DNA of 35,148 nucleotides. It comes from Thermococcus sp. Its GTDB lineage: Archaea > Methanobacteriota_B > Thermococci > Thermococcales > Thermococcaceae. Both the position numbers and the translations under genes were made by a program. The notes below the pieces were generated by a model. That model made no database searches. It was not told where the DNA came from and saw nothing but the letters and a program-made list of their open reading frames with translations. The DNA lies in NCBI GenBank assembly GCA_027074805.1, contig JALTCK010000033.1, forward strand, positions 1 through 35,148, read 5' to 3'. Numbering within the stretch: position 1 is the stretch's first letter; every line of letters starts with the position of its first letter. Of the stretch, positions 10 through 8,326 are shown in pieces.

Positions 10-471
10 TTATCTCCTTCGGACATAAGTCTTTCTCTCGGCAATGGCTCCACCTTCGAGTTTCATAACGTCTATTCTTTCAAAACCTGCAGTTTCCCAT
101 TTATAGGCAATTAAGTAATCGATGAATTGCTTTATTCGGTAGCGGGTTATGGAATCTGCAACGTACTTGGTCTCGTAGAGTAGTACGAGCTTGTCTGAAT
201 GTTCTGAGAGCCATTTGTATAGTGTTTCCTTCTCCTCAGACCTTTTGGAGAGGGGGTTGACTATGAGGTAAACATCAAAATCATTAGATTCAAATGGAGA
301 ACCGATGTATATTTCTCCATTGATCTGGAAAGGAATGTATTCAGCCAGTCCCCTCTTTCCACCCATAAGCCATGCATCGAGGTATATCCTGGCAAGCCTT
401 TTACCACCCCCTGTGAGCAGCACCCTTCCAGCCTTTAGTCCAGCGATTTCCTTTATCATTTTCATCGTCAA
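10..471 (-). CDS. Conserved hypothetical protein (start may be a few codons downstream)
   Basis: Intact 153-aa ORF with archaeal composition and an ATG cluster at the N-terminus; no recognised domain. Confidence 0.6.
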   Translation of the reverse strand: MTMKMIKEIAGLKAGRVLLTGGGKRLARIYLDAWLMGGKRGLAEYIPFQINGEIYIGSPFESNDFDVYLIVNPLSKRSEEKETLYKWLSEHSDKLVLLYETKYVADSITRYRIKQFIDYLIAYKWETAGFERIDVMKLEGGAIAERKTYVRRR

Positions 472-575: not shown

Positions 576-1892
576 ATGAGGCGGTGGATAGCTTTGTTTT
601 TAATCGGCCTCATGGCCATTAGCGTCGTGGCCAGTGGCTGCATTAGCGGTGGCGGTAGTAGCAGTTCGACATCTACGAATACCCCGACTCCCACGAAGAT
701 AAACATAATTTACACGTACACGGGGTCCTTTAGTGACCCGGCTAAGGGTAAGCAGGCAGCGCAGGCACAGCTCCAGCAGGGGGCGTGGGTTATCTACCAA
801 GTCGCGGGTGGAACTGGACTTGGCGTTTTTGAGGCAGTTGGAGACTACCTCAAGGCTAACAACAAGAAGATGGGTCCTCCTTTTGCGATTGGTGTGGACT
901 CGGCTCAGGATTGGATTAAACCAGGAGTCATAATAGCTTCAATGATGAAACGCGTTGACGTTGGCGTTTACAACGCAGTTAAAGCAGCAGAGGAGAACCA
1001 GTTCCGCGGTGGCGTTGTTGAGCTGGGTCTCAAGGATGGTGGCGTCAAGCTAAGCACGATTCAAGATGTTAAGGCAATGTTTGACTCTCTCCCGGCTGAT
1101 GTCAAGGAAAAGAAACTCCAGGAGCTCGGCTTCCAGAACGAACAGCAACTTCTCGACTATCTCAACAAGACCCGCCAGCAGATCCCCTCGTGGATATGGC
1201 AGGCAGTTGACCAGCTCCAGCAGGAGATAGTCAGTGGCAAGATCATCGTCCCGAAGGCCACTTCCAAAGAGCAGATTGAAGCCCTGAGGAAGGCTCAGAA
1301 CTTGAGCGAAATGGAGAAGTACGGCAAGGAATGGGCGGCCACGGCTCCCAAGCCTGAAACTTACTTCAACAAGACCCTTAACGAGAGGCAGAACACCAAG
1401 AAGATAGCTATCGTCTTCGATGTCGGGGGCAGAGGTGACCTGAGCTTTAATGACATGGCTTACATGGGTGCCGAGAGAGCCGTCAAGGACTTTGGACTTC
1501 AGCTCACCCAGCTCCAAAGCAACAGCCCGAACGACTACTACACCAACCTACAGAGTCTTGCGAAGACAGGTCAGTACGACATTATAATCGCAGTAGGTTT
1601 CATGATGACCGACGCCGTCAAGAAGGTCGCCCAAGAGTATCCTAACCAGAGGTTCGTTCTCATAGATGGCTACGACCCGAACATGCCACACAACGTTCAG
1701 ATGGTTCTTTTCAAGGAGAACGAGGGTTCTGCGCTTGCCGGGGCACTAGCTTCGCTCATAGCACTCAATGACGGCAAGGACACTATAGGTATCGTACTCG
1801 GCATGGAGATACCGGTCCTCTATAAGTTCGAGGGCGGCTATCGCTTCGGCGCCTACTGGGGGCTCGACTACTACAAGACCCACAAGCACTGA
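576..1892 (+). CDS. BMP/PnrA-family substrate-binding lipoprotein (nucleoside-type ABC importer), apparently circularly permuted
   Basis: Lipobox-like signal 'MRRWIALFLIGLMAISVVASGC' and Ser/Thr/Pro linker; BMP motifs 'AGGTGLGVFEA', 'GVIIASMMKRVDVGVY', 'VFDVGGRGDLSFNDMAYMGAERA', 'FKENEGS'. ATG 576 follows gaggtg. Directly upstream of ATPase and permeases. Confidence 0.88.
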   Translation: MRRWIALFLIGLMAISVVASGCISGGGSSSSTSTNTPTPTKINIIYTYTGSFSDPAKGKQAAQAQLQQGAWVIYQVAGGTGLGVFEAVGDYLKANNKKMGPPFAIGVDSAQDWIKPGVIIASMMKRVDVGVYNAVKAAEENQFRGGVVELGLKDGGVKLSTIQDVKAMFDSLPADVKEKKLQELGFQNEQQLLDYLNKTRQQIPSWIWQAVDQLQQEIVSGKIIVPKATSKEQIEALRKAQNLSEMEKYGKEWAATAPKPETYFNKTLNERQNTKKIAIVFDVGGRGDLSFNDMAYMGAERAVKDFGLQLTQLQSNSPNDYYTNLQSLAKTGQYDIIIAVGFMMTDAVKKVAQEYPNQRFVLIDGYDPNMPHNVQMVLFKENEGSALAGALASLIALNDGKDTIGIVLGMEIPVLYKFEGGYRFGAYWGLDYYKTHKH

Positions 1893-1931: not shown

Positions 1932-3455
1932 ATGGAAGAAGAGACTCCCTTACTTGAGATGCGAAACATCGTTAAGGTGTACTCCGATGGAACCAAAGCC
2001 CTAAAGGGGGTGGATATTAAGGTTTACAAGGGTGAGATACTGGGTCTTCTTGGTGAGAATGGGGCTGGAAAAACTACTCTGATGAAAATCCTGTTTGGCA
2101 TGCTCAAACCCACTAAGGGAACCATACTCCTGAACGGAAAGGAAGTCCGGTTTAAGAGTCCTGCTGACGCTTTGGCCAATGGAATCGGAATGGTCCACCA
2201 GCACTTCACCTTGGTCGAGGTCTTCAATGCCCTTGAGAACATAATCCTCAGGATGGAGGGCCACGGTCTGCTTTCGAAGATAGACGTAGACAACGCCAGA
2301 AAAAAGCTCCAGAAACTCATGGATGATCTCAACTTCCAGGTTCCACTTGATGTTCCTGTAGAGAACCTTCCCGTTGGTGTTCAGCAGAGGATTGAGATAC
2401 TTAAGATGCTCTACCGGGATGTTGATATTCTCATACTTGATGAGCCCACGGCGGTTTTAACTCCGATAGAGGTTAAGGAGCTATTCGATGTCCTCAAAAA
2501 GCTGAAGAGCCAAGGAAAGACTATCATCTTCATAAGTCACAAGCTCAATGAGGTCATGGAGATAACAGACAGGGTCACGGTCATCAGGAGAGGTGAGGTC
2601 ATCGGGACAGTTAAAACGCCGGAGGCGACACCCCAGCTCTTGGCTAGGATGATGGTGGGTAGGGACGTTGTCCTTAGGATAGAGAAGCCCCCCAAGGAAC
2701 CTGGAGAGGTCATTCTACACGTTGAGGACCTTTGGGTCAAAGGCGATCGCGGTGAGGAAGCTGTAAGAGGGGTTTCCTTCGATGTCAGAGCCGGTGAAAT
2801 ATTCGGGATAGCTGGCGTTGAAGGCAACGGCCAGAGCGAGCTGATAGAAGCCATAACCGGGCTGAGAAGGGTAGAGAAAGGTAAAGTAAAGGTAAACAAT
2901 GTCGAGATAACTGGCAAAAAGCCCAAGGAGCTCTACGAGATGGGTATAGCCCATATCCCAGAGGACAGGACTCACATGGGACTGATTCTTGATATGACTG
3001 TGATGGAAAATGCCATACTGGGAATGCAGTGGCGGAAGGAGTTCTCAAGGGCCGGGCTGATGGACTGGAAAAGCGTGGAAAGGCATACGAAGCACCTCAT
3101 AGAAGAGTTTGACATAACTGCTCCCGGTGTTAGGTCTCCGGTTAAATCCCTCAGCGGTGGCAATCAACAGAAACTCATAGTAGCCAGAGAGGTCAGCAAA
3201 AAACCGGAGCTCATTATAGCTTCTCAGCCGACTCGCGGTGTTGATGTCGCTTCTACTGAATACATCAGGAATTACCTCGTCAGACTGAGGAACGAGAACA
3301 AAGCCGTTCTTCTAGTCTCCGCAGACCTCGATGAGGTTCTCCAGCTCAGCGATAGGATGGCCATCATGTACGAGGGTCAGTTCATGGGAGTTGTCAAACC
3401 CGATGAGGTTACCGAGGAGCAGATAGGCCTCATGATGGGAGGTGTCAAGGCATGA
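1932..3455 (+). CDS. ABC transporter ATP-binding protein, two NBDs, nucleoside/sugar (NupO/RbsA-like) type
   Basis: Walker A 'GENGAGKTTLMK', Walker B 'DILILDEPTAVL', second NBD 'GIAGVEGNGQSELIEAI' and 'LSGGNQQKLIVARE'. Confidence 0.93.
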   Translation: MEEETPLLEMRNIVKVYSDGTKALKGVDIKVYKGEILGLLGENGAGKTTLMKILFGMLKPTKGTILLNGKEVRFKSPADALANGIGMVHQHFTLVEVFNALENIILRMEGHGLLSKIDVDNARKKLQKLMDDLNFQVPLDVPVENLPVGVQQRIEILKMLYRDVDILILDEPTAVLTPIEVKELFDVLKKLKSQGKTIIFISHKLNEVMEITDRVTVIRRGEVIGTVKTPEATPQLLARMMVGRDVVLRIEKPPKEPGEVILHVEDLWVKGDRGEEAVRGVSFDVRAGEIFGIAGVEGNGQSELIEAITGLRRVEKGKVKVNNVEITGKKPKELYEMGIAHIPEDRTHMGLILDMTVMENAILGMQWRKEFSRAGLMDWKSVERHTKHLIEEFDITAPGVRSPVKSLSGGNQQKLIVAREVSKKPELIIASQPTRGVDVASTEYIRNYLVRLRNENKAVLLVSADLDEVLQLSDRMAIMYEGQFMGVVKPDEVTEEQIGLMMGGVKA

Positions 3456-4492
3456 GCTTTTCCACTGAATTGCGCGGTTACGGAAAACCCCTGGCGGAGA
3501 GTGTTCTCGCGATACTGATTGGGGCGCTCATAGGTGCTATTGTGTTGTGGCTCAGCGGCTATGACGCCGTCGCTGCTTACAAAGCCCTGCTGGAGGGCGC
3601 TTTCCTCGGGGGGAACTTCTCTGAGACCCTCAGCAAGTCTACCCCTCTTATACTCACGGCAATAACCTTCGCTATAGGCGCTAGAACTGGTCTCTTCAAC
3701 ATTGGTGCCGAGGGTGCGGTTTACTTCGGCGCAATTGCGGCCGTCGGCGTTACGCAGGTACTTCAGAACCCCCTCGCAGGTGTGCTCAGCGGACTGCTAA
3801 TCGGTGCCCTCTGGATGCTTCCAGCGGCGGTGCTCAAGGTTTATCGCGGTGTCCATGAGGTCATCTCAACCATAATGCTTAACTGGATAGCGTTTTACAT
3901 TGCCAGTTGGATGGCTCTCAGCGTCTTAGCCAACCCAAACAATCCCAACAGCACCCTGCCAATACCCCCTGGGGCGAGACTTCCACTCCTCGTTCAGAAC
4001 TCCACTCTCTCCATGGCATTCATCATCGCGGTCGTGGCCTCGATAGTGGTTTATGTCATAATGTGGCACACCAGACTTGGTTATGAACTTAGGACGAGCG
4101 GTCAGAACCCAAGGGCTGCTGAGTACGGCGGCATAAACCCGAAGGCCGCGATGGTATGGTCGTTCCTCATCGGGGGAATGACAGCCGGGCTTGCGGGTGC
4201 AGTTCAGATCATGGGCATACCACCGAGTTACTCGATAAGTCAAGGACTGGCCAACGTTTACGGTTACGGTTTCGATGGGATAGGCGTCTCACTCGTAGGC
4301 AGAAATCATCCGCTTGGGATAATCTTTGCGGGGATACTCTTCGGTGCGCTGAACGCTGGTGCAACACAGATGCAACAGACGGGTGTTCCACTGGAGATGG
4401 TCAAGGTCATTGAGGGAATAATCATTGTGGCCGTTGCCGTTCCAGGATTGCTTGACCTCTTCGTGAAGCCCTTTAGGAGGGGAGCCCAATGA
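3452..4492 (+). CDS. ABC transporter permease (BMP/nucleoside-type, NupP-like)
   Basis: Polytopic; 'FNIGAEGAVYFGAIAAV' and 'LRTSGQNPRAAEYGGI'; overlaps the ATPase stop by 4 nt. Confidence 0.9.
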   Translation: MSFSTELRGYGKPLAESVLAILIGALIGAIVLWLSGYDAVAAYKALLEGAFLGGNFSETLSKSTPLILTAITFAIGARTGLFNIGAEGAVYFGAIAAVGVTQVLQNPLAGVLSGLLIGALWMLPAAVLKVYRGVHEVISTIMLNWIAFYIASWMALSVLANPNNPNSTLPIPPGARLPLLVQNSTLSMAFIIAVVASIVVYVIMWHTRLGYELRTSGQNPRAAEYGGINPKAAMVWSFLIGGMTAGLAGAVQIMGIPPSYSISQGLANVYGYGFDGIGVSLVGRNHPLGIIFAGILFGALNAGATQMQQTGVPLEMVKVIEGIIIVAVAVPGLLDLFVKPFRRGAQ

Positions 4493-5400
4493 ATGAGACG
4501 ATGATAGTCGGTCTTCTGCTCGGCTCTCTAGCGGCGATGGTGCCCATAGTCCTCACCAGCGTCGGGGCGACGATAAGCGAGAGGGCTGGCGTTGTCAACA
4601 TTGGCTACGAGGGAATACTGATGCTCTCTGCGTTCTTCGGGACCATTTTTGCGGAGATGGCTCACAACGGCTGGGTCGGTCTTCTTGGTGGGGCACTTAC
4701 GGGTCTGGCACTGGGCGTCGTTCACGGCGTTATAACGGTCTACCTCAAGGGTGACCACGTCATACCGGGCATAGGTCTAAACCTCATAGGTTATGGAGGC
4801 GTCGCCTTTGGAATCCTTGCTTACTGGGGCACCGCGGGCCAGCACCAGGTTCCGAGCTACGCACAGATAAGCCCTCTCTGGATGGACGCCTTCGGGAACT
4901 CGCTGAGTCCGATGGTTCCCATAACATTTTTCATTGCCCTTCTGGCTTGGTGGATGCTCTTCAAGACACCCCTTGGACTTCGCATTCGCTCCGTTGGTGA
5001 GAATCCGGAAGCAGCGGATGCACTCGGAATAAACGTCGAACTCTATCGCTTCACGGCGGTGCTGATAGCCTCGGCGTTGTCAGGCGTTGCGGGAGCCTAT
5101 CTGAGCGTGGATTGGCTTGGAACCGTCACCAAAACAATAGCGGCCGGTAGGGGTTTCATAGCGCTGGCCAACATGGTATTCAGTGGATGGAACCCGCTGA
5201 TGGCTCTCGTTGGAGGCTTCATCTTTGGGTTCTTCGATAACCTGGCCATATACATACAGAACAACCCATGGCTTGCAGGAGCGATACCTTGGCAGTTCAT
5301 AGCGACGTTGCCCTACGTGGTAACTCTTATAGTGGTAGCGGGTATAATAGGCAGGGCTAGGCCGCCTAAGTGGGATGGTATCCCATACAAGAGGGAGTGA
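4489..5400 (+). CDS. ABC transporter permease (BMP/nucleoside-type, NupQ-like)
   Basis: Polytopic; 'VNIGYEGILMLSAFFG' and 'LRIRSVGENPEAADALGI'; overlaps the preceding permease by 4 nt. Confidence 0.9.
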   Translation: MNETMIVGLLLGSLAAMVPIVLTSVGATISERAGVVNIGYEGILMLSAFFGTIFAEMAHNGWVGLLGGALTGLALGVVHGVITVYLKGDHVIPGIGLNLIGYGGVAFGILAYWGTAGQHQVPSYAQISPLWMDAFGNSLSPMVPITFFIALLAWWMLFKTPLGLRIRSVGENPEAADALGINVELYRFTAVLIASALSGVAGAYLSVDWLGTVTKTIAAGRGFIALANMVFSGWNPLMALVGGFIFGFFDNLAIYIQNNPWLAGAIPWQFIATLPYVVTLIVVAGIIGRARPPKWDGIPYKRE

Positions 5401-5451
5401 TTCCCTCTTCTGCGATTTTCCTTTTTCAAGAACGGTGTATAAAAGGGAAGT

Positions 5452-6450
5452 TCATTTTTTCAGGACTACACCAATCGCCGTCCCAAGGACGAGTCCAACC
5501 ATAAGGGAGAGCACCACATATGTCGTTACGTCCGTGCCCTCTACTGGAATCCTTTCAACCTTTCTGCCCAGGGCACTCACGACCGCAGCACTGTTTTCTA
5601 TTAGAACTTCAGTGTAGGGTTGATCACTCCAGAATACCGAGACCTCTACACTCGGTCTTCCACTCTTTGAAGCCAATTCTCTTGCTGCGTTCTTGAGCTG
5701 TTCCGAACTTTCCCTGGTGTAAACCACCATAGAGGTCTTCATGCTCGTCTTAACCAGGCTGTCGACTCCTATGGCTGGTACTTCCTCTTCGGGCTTTATT
5801 GAGGCGACAGCTTTTATTCCAAGCCATTCTATAGCGTACTGGTCTGGTGGCATCTGGATCACCGCTGTGAAATTCTCTTGGACGAGAGCCCTATACGATT
5901 GAACTATCGCCAGAACGCGCTCTTTGAAACTTCGATATTCCTCCTGGTAGAGGTTCTTGTTTCCTGGATCACGTTCGATAAGCGCCTCCTCTGCACTCTT
6001 CGCTATTGAAAGAGCGTTATATGGATCAACCCAGACGCCGTGGGGGTTATTCTTCTCATTATACCAGTGTTCCTTTAGATAACGGAAGCCGTTCCTCTTG
6101 TAATCATCAACGAAGAGGGGTTTGCCGGTTATCACACCCTCCTTGTAGAGCTCTGCTATCTTCTTTTCAACCGGGAGGTGACCGCCCGTGGTGACTATCA
6201 CATCGGCCTTGTGAAGGAGCTCTATCTGGCTGGTTGTTAGCTGGTATTCGTGCGGATCGGCCCCAGGTGGGATTATATAAACTACTTCCACAGAGTCTCC
6301 GAAGGCGTCCTTGATTATGCCAGCGAGGGGCGCTATGGTGGTGACAACAAGGGGCCTTTGAGTTTCTCCACTAACTTCACTGGTGAGGGTGATGAACAAT
6401 AATATGATCAGGATAGTCCCAAGAAGTTTTCTCACTCTCATTTCGGTCAC
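5452..6450 (-). CDS. ZnuA-like (COG0803 type) metal ABC transporter substrate-binding protein with C-terminal TM anchor
   Basis: Signal peptide, 'VVTTIAPLAGIIKDAFGD', 'PGADPHEYQLTTSQ', 'NNPHGVWVDPYNA', C-terminal hydrophobic helix 'VLSLMVGLVLGTAIGVVLKK'. Confidence 0.8.
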   Translation of the reverse strand: MTEMRVRKLLGTILIILLFITLTSEVSGETQRPLVVTTIAPLAGIIKDAFGDSVEVVYIIPPGADPHEYQLTTSQIELLHKADVIVTTGGHLPVEKKIAELYKEGVITGKPLFVDDYKRNGFRYLKEHWYNEKNNPHGVWVDPYNALSIAKSAEEALIERDPGNKNLYQEEYRSFKERVLAIVQSYRALVQENFTAVIQMPPDQYAIEWLGIKAVASIKPEEEVPAIGVDSLVKTSMKTSMVVYTRESSEQLKNAARELASKSGRPSVEVSVFWSDQPYTEVLIENSAAVVSALGRKVERIPVEGTDVTTYVVLSLMVGLVLGTAIGVVLKK

Positions 6451-6529
6451 CCTAACAAAGTCAACGTCTCTGCTTTAAAGTTGTCGGAAACGTTATAAGT
6501 TCCTGGGAGAACTACCACCCGGGATTGTT

Positions 6530-8326
6530 ATGAGGAAACTCTGGGGCTCCATATTACTAATGTTCCTGCTTTTGAGTCTCAGTATCAGTCCCGTTGCGGC
6601 GTATAAAGTAGACTCGCGGGTAACCGTTGAAATAAACCCCAATGCAGAGCTCCTGAGCGTCGTCTACTACCTTGCTTTTGGTAAGAATGACCCATTCGTT
6701 ATAAACAGGGGTGGGTACCTCAAAGAAGTTGATGGTTATTTCGAAGAATACCGGAACATGGAAGCTGTGAGAATGCTTAAAGACTACATCCCTAAAACGC
6801 TCAGCACCCCTGAGAGAGACTACAAACTGATGCTCGTGGAATGGTACCTCCTACAATGCAGTGCACCCCCAGAGATAGAGCCCCAGATTGCGATAGATGA
6901 CCAATGGGTGCTGGAGTTTCTCTCCGCCCTCAGAGAGTTTGCAAAAGAGACTGACTTTATAAAGTTCTACAAAGAGCATCAGGTCTACTACTGGGAGGAT
7001 CTCTCGATATATGTTAACGCTTTCAAACAGCTTCCTCCAGATAAATTCATGGGGAAATATGCGGATGTCAAGGATATTAGCTTTGAGTTTCTACATCCTT
7101 ACCTCGTTGCCATTCACGGGCACAGCTTTAACCCGGTAATCAACGGGCACCAAATTTGGGGTGCGGGAGGCATGCTACCCCTCGTCAGAAGAACCCCTCA
7201 GAGAACCCTCTGGAGTCATGAAACTGCAAGGGACACAATCTTTGGACTCCCATTGAACGGCGACTACATCAATAACGGTGGCCTCGACGAACTACTTTAT
7301 CTAGGCTTCATCTACCACGAGCTCGGGCACGACATAACCCTCCCCCAGCTCTGGGCAAACATTAAGATGGTTGACAACATGAACTACTTCCAGTCCGTGA
7401 TAGAGGAGAATATGCCCTATCTGGCCAAGTACGACATTCACTTCTGGCATCCAGAATCCATGATCTACGAGAGCTTCGCCGATGGATGGGAGGACTTTGC
7501 GCTCTCTCATGTGAACGAGAACTACACGAAGTTAGCCATGTGGATGCAACGTGGCTGGGGTGAGTACTGGATAGATGACGTTGTGAACCTCTATGAGAAA
7601 TACGCCCGCTTAACCAGTGAGACGGGGAGAGGAATAAGCAACTACGTGCCCCAGATGCTCGCGGCGCTTGAGGGAAACTACAGCCCCACCAAAGCCGAGG
7701 AGGAGTTTCAGGAAAGGGTTCCGGTAACACCGCTGATGGCCTTTGACAAGGGGGCAGTTAATGGAAAGGTAATAATAGTCTTTGGGACAAAGAACCCGGA
7801 TGAAAGTGGTGTAAGTTATGATTACCAAACCGCGACCATAGTTGAGATAATGCTCAGGGACTTTTACTCGCAGTGGGAAAGTCCCGTCAACGTCACCATA
7901 AAAGCGGACTTCGACATTACTGACCAGGATCTGAAGGAGAACCTAGTTATACTCGGTGGTCCAGTTACGAACGAGATCGCCAGGAAGATGCAGAACGAGT
8001 TTCCGCTCCGTTTCGTTGAAAAGAATGGGAAGTGGGTCGTAGACCACGATTCTAACTGGAACATAAGTAGCTTTATCCTGACGGGGAACGAGGAAAAGCC
8101 GGTCCTCATTGGAAAGCTCAATGATGCGTCCAACGCCTCATTCATCATGGCGATAAGAAACCCATACAACCCGAAGAACTTCATAGTTTGGATAGCGGGT
8201 GCAGATAGGTATGGAACAAGGCTGTATCTGAACCCCACTTACTATCTCAGCAGCTACGAGGTATGGAGTAAGAAAGGGATAGAGCTCGGCTTCTATGTTC
8301 AGCCGCTGACATCTTCTGGCGGCTGA
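6530..8326 (+). CDS. Secreted putative metallopeptidase (DUF4932-like) with S-layer-like C-terminal region
   Basis: Signal peptide 'MRKLWGSILLMFLLLSLSISPVAA'; zinc motif 'YHELGHD' (HExxH) with downstream 'YESFADGWEDF'; C-terminal 'LGGPVTNEIARKM' and 'NPKNFIVWIAGADRYGT'. Confidence 0.7.
   Translation: MRKLWGSILLMFLLLSLSISPVAAYKVDSRVTVEINPNAELLSVVYYLAFGKNDPFVINRGGYLKEVDGYFEEYRNMEAVRMLKDYIPKTLSTPERDYKLMLVEWYLLQCSAPPEIEPQIAIDDQWVLEFLSALREFAKETDFIKFYKEHQVYYWEDLSIYVNAFKQLPPDKFMGKYADVKDISFEFLHPYLVAIHGHSFNPVINGHQIWGAGGMLPLVRRTPQRTLWSHETARDTIFGLPLNGDYINNGGLDELLYLGFIYHELGHDITLPQLWANIKMVDNMNYFQSVIEENMPYLAKYDIHFWHPESMIYESFADGWEDFALSHVNENYTKLAMWMQRGWGEYWIDDVVNLYEKYARLTSETGRGISNYVPQMLAALEGNYSPTKAEEEFQERVPVTPLMAFDKGAVNGKVIIVFGTKNPDESGVSYDYQTATIVEIMLRDFYSQWESPVNVTIKADFDITDQDLKENLVILGGPVTNEIARKMQNEFPLRFVEKNGKWVVDHDSNWNISSFILTGNEEKPVLIGKLNDASNASFIMAIRNPYNPKNFIVWIAGADRYGTRLYLNPTYYLSSYEVWSKKGIELGFYVQPLTSSGG

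Follow-up and report, generated by a model that had tools for sequence, protein, structure and literature searches.

A circularly permuted PnrA/BMP-family lipoprotein (NupD) in Thermococcus and the probable exchange of its operon at one locus

A gene near one end of the stretch of DNA analysed here (the window: 35,148 nucleotides, the entire contig C33 of a Thermococcus MAG with 173 contigs, 88.7% complete) appears to encode a substrate-binding lipoprotein of the PnrA/BMP family with the two halves of its chain in reverse order. Is this a genuine circular permutation, and if so, how often did it arise and how did it reach the genomes in which it is found? On the evidence below, the protein is almost certainly a true circular permutant of the PnrA/BMP fold and an ortholog of NupD (TK0657). 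The whole account, with a single origin and spread of the complete operon by in situ replacement, is a step less secure but still very likely.

Order of the halves and the modelled fold

The ORF at 576–1892 is intact and encodes a 438-aa lipoprotein (Table 1). It matches the Pfam family Bmp (PF02608) with 172 bits against a cut-off of 24.1, in two stretches that cover both halves; the best of these, residues 278–426, corresponds to profile positions 4–149, i.e., the N-half. In phmmer searches of solved structures the whole protein matches 4pev (E = 6.7e-66), residues 38–227 aligning with 4pev 216–399 (C-half) and residues 257–427 with 35–210 (N-half). Since the C-half of 4pev is matched before its N-half, the order of the halves is swapped, and when the halves were searched separately the result was the same against all PnrA/BMP structures. 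In 6yab the N-half match stops at residue 166 and the C-half match starts at 173, so nothing notable is missing at the permutation cut. The profile and structure matches bear out what a sequence-only reading had proposed, a C-half placed ahead of the N-half after the signal peptide. Members of PF02608 carry the N-half before the C-half; with this order reversed, the window protein belongs to a permuted subgroup of the family and is not a canonical member. It does have the lipobox signal of BMP/PnrA proteins and an operon with an ATPase and two BPD_transp_2 permeases. The operon genes are co-directional, with short or overlapping joins, and the ATPase and both permease genes (1932–5400) are directly downstream and intact, as had been noted.

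Table 1. Features of the nup locus in the window (positions in nt; residues are those of the 438-aa protein).
Feature	Positions	Strand	Remarks
Left flanking gene, 153-aa protein	10–471	-	At the locus in both operon types; tracks species, not operon type
Lipoprotein signal peptide and lipobox (ASGC, Cys22)	576–641	+	Host-specific; retained during the proposed operon-allele swaps (pair alignments)
Conserved lipobox-coding stretch GTGGCCAGYGGCTGCAT	627–643	+	Proposed left junction of allele exchange (sister-pair alignments)
Ser/Thr-rich spacer downstream of the lipobox	642–695	+	
Canonical C-half of the PnrA/BMP fold, residues 41–256	696–1343	+	Placed first
New linker APKPETYFNKTLNERQNT, residues 257–274	1344–1397	+	Bridges the former termini (C to N); a short strand and a helix in the model
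Canonical N-half of the PnrA/BMP fold, residues 275–438	1398–1889	+	Placed last
ABC transporter ATPase, two ABC domains, TK0658/NupA type	1932–3455	+	Single clade in permuted genomes
Permease 1, BPD_transp_2, NupB type	3452–4492	+	
Permease 2, BPD_transp_2, NupC type	4489–5400	+	Proposed right exchange junction in the last codons
Right flanking gene, ZnuA-like	5452–6450	-	Tracks species, not operon type

A linker does join the halves, but not all of what had been assigned to it is new. Proteins of the sister genera have an 'LYTYTGS' strand and a tail, 'EMEELAKQWESS' up to the stop codon, which leads straight into 'EMEKYGKEWAAT' of the permuted proteins. The first five residues originally counted as linker (EWAAT) align with this canonical C-terminal tail, so the insertion comes to only about 18 aa. 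The chain is opened at the loop that connects the 'FEGGYRFGAYWGLDYYK' helix to the 'INIIYTYTGSF' strand; the 18-aa linker would bridge the old termini.

An AlphaFold2 model, for which permuted proteins were aligned together with canonical halves entered separately, has a pLDDT of 89.3 and a pTM of 0.87, with disorder confined to the signal peptide and spacer; for a canonical control (G019, locus L098) the values are 90.1 and 0.87. Rotated at the linker, the secondary structure elements of the permuted model (EHEHEHEEHEH / EHEHEEHEEHHHHHH) are identical to those of the control, and the linker adds a short strand and a helix. In Foldseek comparisons, where alignments follow sequence order, the control matches PnrA entries end-to-end (356–389 columns, TMt 0.73–0.84) and the permuted model matches one half only (~155 columns, TMt ~0.4), which is the signature expected of a permutant. 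This check had been proposed along with the permutation itself, as had a model without a single closed fold as grounds for abandoning it; at the pTM obtained, the model points to a closed fold for exactly this protein. Sequence matches, the 22 orthologs described below, and the model with its canonical control all uphold the permutation.

Seven pocket positions (BmpA F27, F176, D19, D24, D98, D225, and K242, with equivalences assigned by motif and not by superposition) do not vary among the 83 proteins compared (22 permuted, 61 canonical). In BmpA the nucleoside pocket has two stacking Phe, with Asp and Lys for the ribose (PMC13325309, PMC7093131). TK0657 of T. kodakarensis was identified as the G012 gene, with T39 and K117 at the published genome positions; it clusters with the window protein, and K117, which was mutated in an evolved strain, is the equivalent of pocket residue Lys242. 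Deletion of TK0657 impairs nucleoside-dependent growth, and mutations in it were studied alongside RuBisCO overexpression (PMC12628685), so that wild-type activity is something we infer. The pocket residues and this phenotype suggest that the ligand of the window protein is probably a nucleoside. The protein would be the lipid-anchored substrate-binding component of a nucleoside ABC importer, NupDABC; as in PnrA, a nucleoside would be held between the two lobes and passed to the heteromeric permease pair for ATP-driven import. The lipid anchor would now connect to the C-half, the other half from that in canonical proteins. An altered ligand, or a role as sensor instead of transporter, would leave the fold real and is conceivable in that two operon types coexist and could differ in specificity, but it is unlikely: none of the seven pocket residues varies, the permuted gene is accompanied by the importer genes, and the nupD deletion has the phenotype just described.

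Distribution and origin of the permuted order

The permuted order occurs in 23 of 61 Thermococcus genomes, the window's included. Of the other 22 copies, 21 are full-length and 78–90% identical to the window protein, and one is truncated by the end of its contig (92% over what remains). Six of the permuted genomes are closed or nearly closed (G006, G008, G010, G012, G013, and G021); more than half are fragmented drafts or MAGs. The junctions fall at identical residues in all of them, the linker is conserved (84% mean column identity among permuted proteins), and dN/dS values of 0.01–0.12 in both halves (eight pairs) indicate strong purifying selection. The window's position, only 576 bases of DNA separating the gene from the end of a contig that is itself one piece of a much-divided MAG, might raise the suspicion that assembly or binning had put the halves in the wrong order. 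The probability of this is negligible, as the same order is found in 22 further genomes, closed ones (G008, G010, G012, and G013) among them, and in TK0657 of T. kodakarensis, an independently sequenced strain. Misassembly, named at the outset as a possible refutation, is thus ruled out by the closed genomes. Close orthologs in canonical order, named with it, are indeed found, but they represent an alternative allele carried by sister species and are no evidence of error: the two forms are about 70% identical per half and found at the same locus.

No further permuted matches were listed across the family (95 genomes, 6 genera) or the phylum (116 genomes). The copies in all other Thermococcaceae have the canonical order, as do all the relatives found in other phyla, those in Thermoproteus, Desulfurococcales, and Staphylothermus. 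The family and phylum searches, without a permuted match outside the genus, indicate that the canonical order is ancestral. No plasmid record covered 80% of the permuted gene as query, with all matches below 60% identity, and among viral relatives of the fold there was one weak match only (TM 0.25).

A few genomes have unusual complements at this locus. G042, a 53%-complete MAG, has both operon types (L051 and L069, on contigs C17 and C27), and the upstream flanking gene is present beside each; the bin probably mixes two species. Neither type of NupD was found in G049, G041, or G034; G049 is 95% complete and the EF-2 sister of the permuted G045, and may have lost the nup operon. In G029 (locus L104; binding protein and permease 1) the canonical binding protein differs from its closest relatives in a changed, shortened tail ending in AIEEAQAEDHQR, which suggests a frameshift or local rearrangement.

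When the permuted or canonical state was mapped on trees of the N-half, C-half, ATPase, permease 1, and permease 2, it changed once on each. Support is 100 for the permuted clade of binding proteins and 100/100 for that of the concatenated operon, and as the binding protein, ATPase, and both permeases each give one permuted clade, a single origin is indicated. The permuted clade, the canonical operons of Thermococcus, and those of the sister genera form an unresolved trichotomy. Repeated, independent permutation at the same place might be read into the scattering of the permuted state on species-level markers (14 changes on EF-2), but is highly improbable: beyond the five single-change trees, the linker is homologous in all permuted proteins, and the half trees are the opposite of permuted copies nesting with canonical relatives from the same species. 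The permutation would have occurred once, on the stem of a distinct Thermococcaceae operon lineage, and duplication, fusion, and trimming are a plausible route to it. Neither an intermediate nor a donor lineage was found among the genomes compared. A short similarity between the two breakpoints had been taken as a trace of repeat-mediated duplication and loss, but this does not hold up: when 500 pairs of 40-nt windows were drawn at random from this gene, 65 (13%) reached its 8/9-nt match, i.e., it is at chance level and no evidence for such an origin.

Two operon types at one site

Permuted and canonical operons are found at the same site, between the 153-aa-protein gene and the ZnuA-like gene. 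The latter is adjoined in the window by a gene (6530–8326) for a secreted 598-aa protein with a DUF4932 domain and a weak S-layer match, retained at the locus in many Thermococcus. Within the locus, the identity of the operon genes to the window tracks operon type and that of the flanks tracks species. The permuted state changes 10, 11, and 8 times on flanking-gene trees and 14 times on the EF-2 tree, at least 12 of these on well-supported branches (EF-2 being a single marker and most of the trees coming from quick searches). By AU tests, one clade of all permuted genomes is rejected for EF-2 (p 1e-5) and for both adjacent flanks (p < 1e-49). With closed or near-closed Thermococcus genomes only (n = 27, one outgroup row being added for EF-2), there are five changes on EF-2, five on the ZnuA-like gene, four on the upstream gene, and one on each operon gene, and the AU test on EF-2 again rejects a single permuted clade. 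Among pairs with an EF-2 distance below 0.06, the upstream gene has diverged equally in pairs of the same and of opposite type (0.130 and 0.123), whereas the five operon segments differ by 0.10–0.13 within and 0.24–0.34 between types. One change in the operon genes, against 8–11 in the flanks and 14 on EF-2, indicates that the permuted operon is an allele repeatedly exchanged in situ, a conclusion that is very probably correct.

The edges of the exchanged segment are visible in alignments of sister species. G031p and G019, of opposite types, are 92–98% identical through the promoter and signal peptide up to the lipobox codons (GTGGCCAGCGGCTGCAT), where similarity collapses. The left junction is likewise at the lipobox in the pairs G021/G007 and G008/G060, and is less sharp in G004/G011 and others. 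On the right, similarity resumes in the last codons of permease 2 (ending in KARPPKWDGRPYKRE and the stop codon) and continues through the ZnuA-like gene. With junctions at these two points, each species keeps its own promoter and signal peptide and exchanges the mature binding protein as a unit with all parts of the transporter.

It could be argued that the Thermococcus ancestor already had the two operon types and that differential loss sorted them, with no transfer between species; the permuted operon does branch as deeply as the split between canonical operons of Thermococcus and of other genera, and T. kodakarensis, near the base of the EF-2 tree, has an early-branching permuted copy. This is quite unlikely, however. 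There is no reliable genome with both operons (G042 is the doubtful bin described above), both types are at one locus between the same flanking genes, and the switch between them is sharp at two points in sister species that otherwise share nearly all of their promoter and signal sequence. Alternating alleles at one locus would require recombination in any case.

Under the exchange reading, the permuted operon would have spread among Thermococcus species by homologous replacement of the resident operon, crossing over on its left side at the conserved stretch that encodes the lipobox and on its right side at the 3' end of the gene for permease 2. Natural competence is documented in T. kodakarensis (PMC7936305), which makes uptake of linear DNA followed by homologous recombination the likely route; natural transformation would then be the means of exchange. 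No mixed operon, with permuted and canonical parts, was seen among the genes available. The constant co-travel of the four genes fits either a single recombination tract or co-adaptation of binding protein and permeases, and such co-adaptation may exist. More tentatively, with a little less than an even chance of being right, two long-lived alternative nup operons may swap at the lipobox codons as cassettes, each placed behind the promoter and signal peptide of the recipient; the permuted protein would then never be combined with canonical permeases, nor its permeases with a canonical protein, since the move of the tether made them co-adapted. That selection maintains the alternatives is possible to about the same degree.

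The canonical operons of G089 (genus g5) and G061 (genus g2), at loci L109 and L115, branch within the canonical operons of Thermococcus, so that operons at this locus may be exchanged between genera as well.

Comparison with known systems

The topology itself is not new. TK0657 (NupD) of T. kodakarensis was described in October 2025 as having a 'flipped domain arrangement' by AlphaFold3 (PMC12628685); the permutation proposed for the window is therefore right but its topology already published. The window protein resembles NupD (~80% identity) in its swapped halves, junctions, linker, NupABC partners, operon, and locus. That study treats one species, without the term circular permutation, and is silent on distribution, single origin, and operon exchange; the single origin and repeated exchange of the permuted operon appear to be unreported.

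Since sister species have the two forms at one locus, along with partner genes and closed genomes, the costs and benefits of a permutation could be tested directly, and paired permuted and canonical operons would allow tests of binding protein–permease matching and of how the permutant originated. To our knowledge, it is unusual for a natural circular permutant to have close unpermuted relatives within its genus. A lipobox serving as a recombination joint also suggests how archaea could swap lipoprotein transporters while keeping their own expression and export signals. Genetics are established in T. kodakarensis. Together with its natural competence (PMC7936305), this makes comparisons of permuted and canonical forms feasible.

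Among the better-known members of PF02608, PnrA/TmpC of Treponema pallidum (2fqw), PnrA of S. pneumoniae (6yab), BmpA/BmpD of Borrelia, and 4pev of Aeropyrum share the fold elements and pocket residues of the window protein, but have their halves in canonical order and lack the linker. A different use of the canonical domain is seen in G031 (contig C1, L070:8340–11468), where a 1042-aa protein combines a canonical-order BMP domain, a hydrophobic stretch, DUF7662, and a Ser/Thr kinase (PF02608, PF24698, PF00069). The first ~250 nt of its C-half resemble the permuted type (up to 87–92%), the remainder does not; its neighbours include an OppA-like binding protein–kinase fusion (3294–7100) and a further kinase gene (315–2051). 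From its domains it looks like an archaeal nucleoside-sensing receptor kinase, and it was rejected as a second transporter copy in that genome.

The solute-binding protein 5er3 of Rhodopirellula baltica ranks second among Foldseek matches of the permuted model (408 columns, TMt 0.58), the only solved structure near the top of the list to align with it end-to-end; at 10% identity it was missed by phmmer. It is not among the best 50 matches of the canonical control, and so possibly shares the permuted strand order; it may be an unrecognised permutant of a type I binding protein.

Another type I substrate-binding lipoprotein with a natural circular permutation, TpMglB-2 (Tp0684) of Treponema pallidum, was reported in 2016 as 'Type Ic' and retains ligand binding (PMC4990184). 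It differs from the window protein in being a glucose binder of another family and in the position of the cut, which lies in the N-lobe and moves the first three N-lobe strands to the C-terminus (PMC4990184). In the window protein all N-half elements (EHEHEHEEHEH) move as one. The permutations of TpMglB-2 and NupD are independent events.
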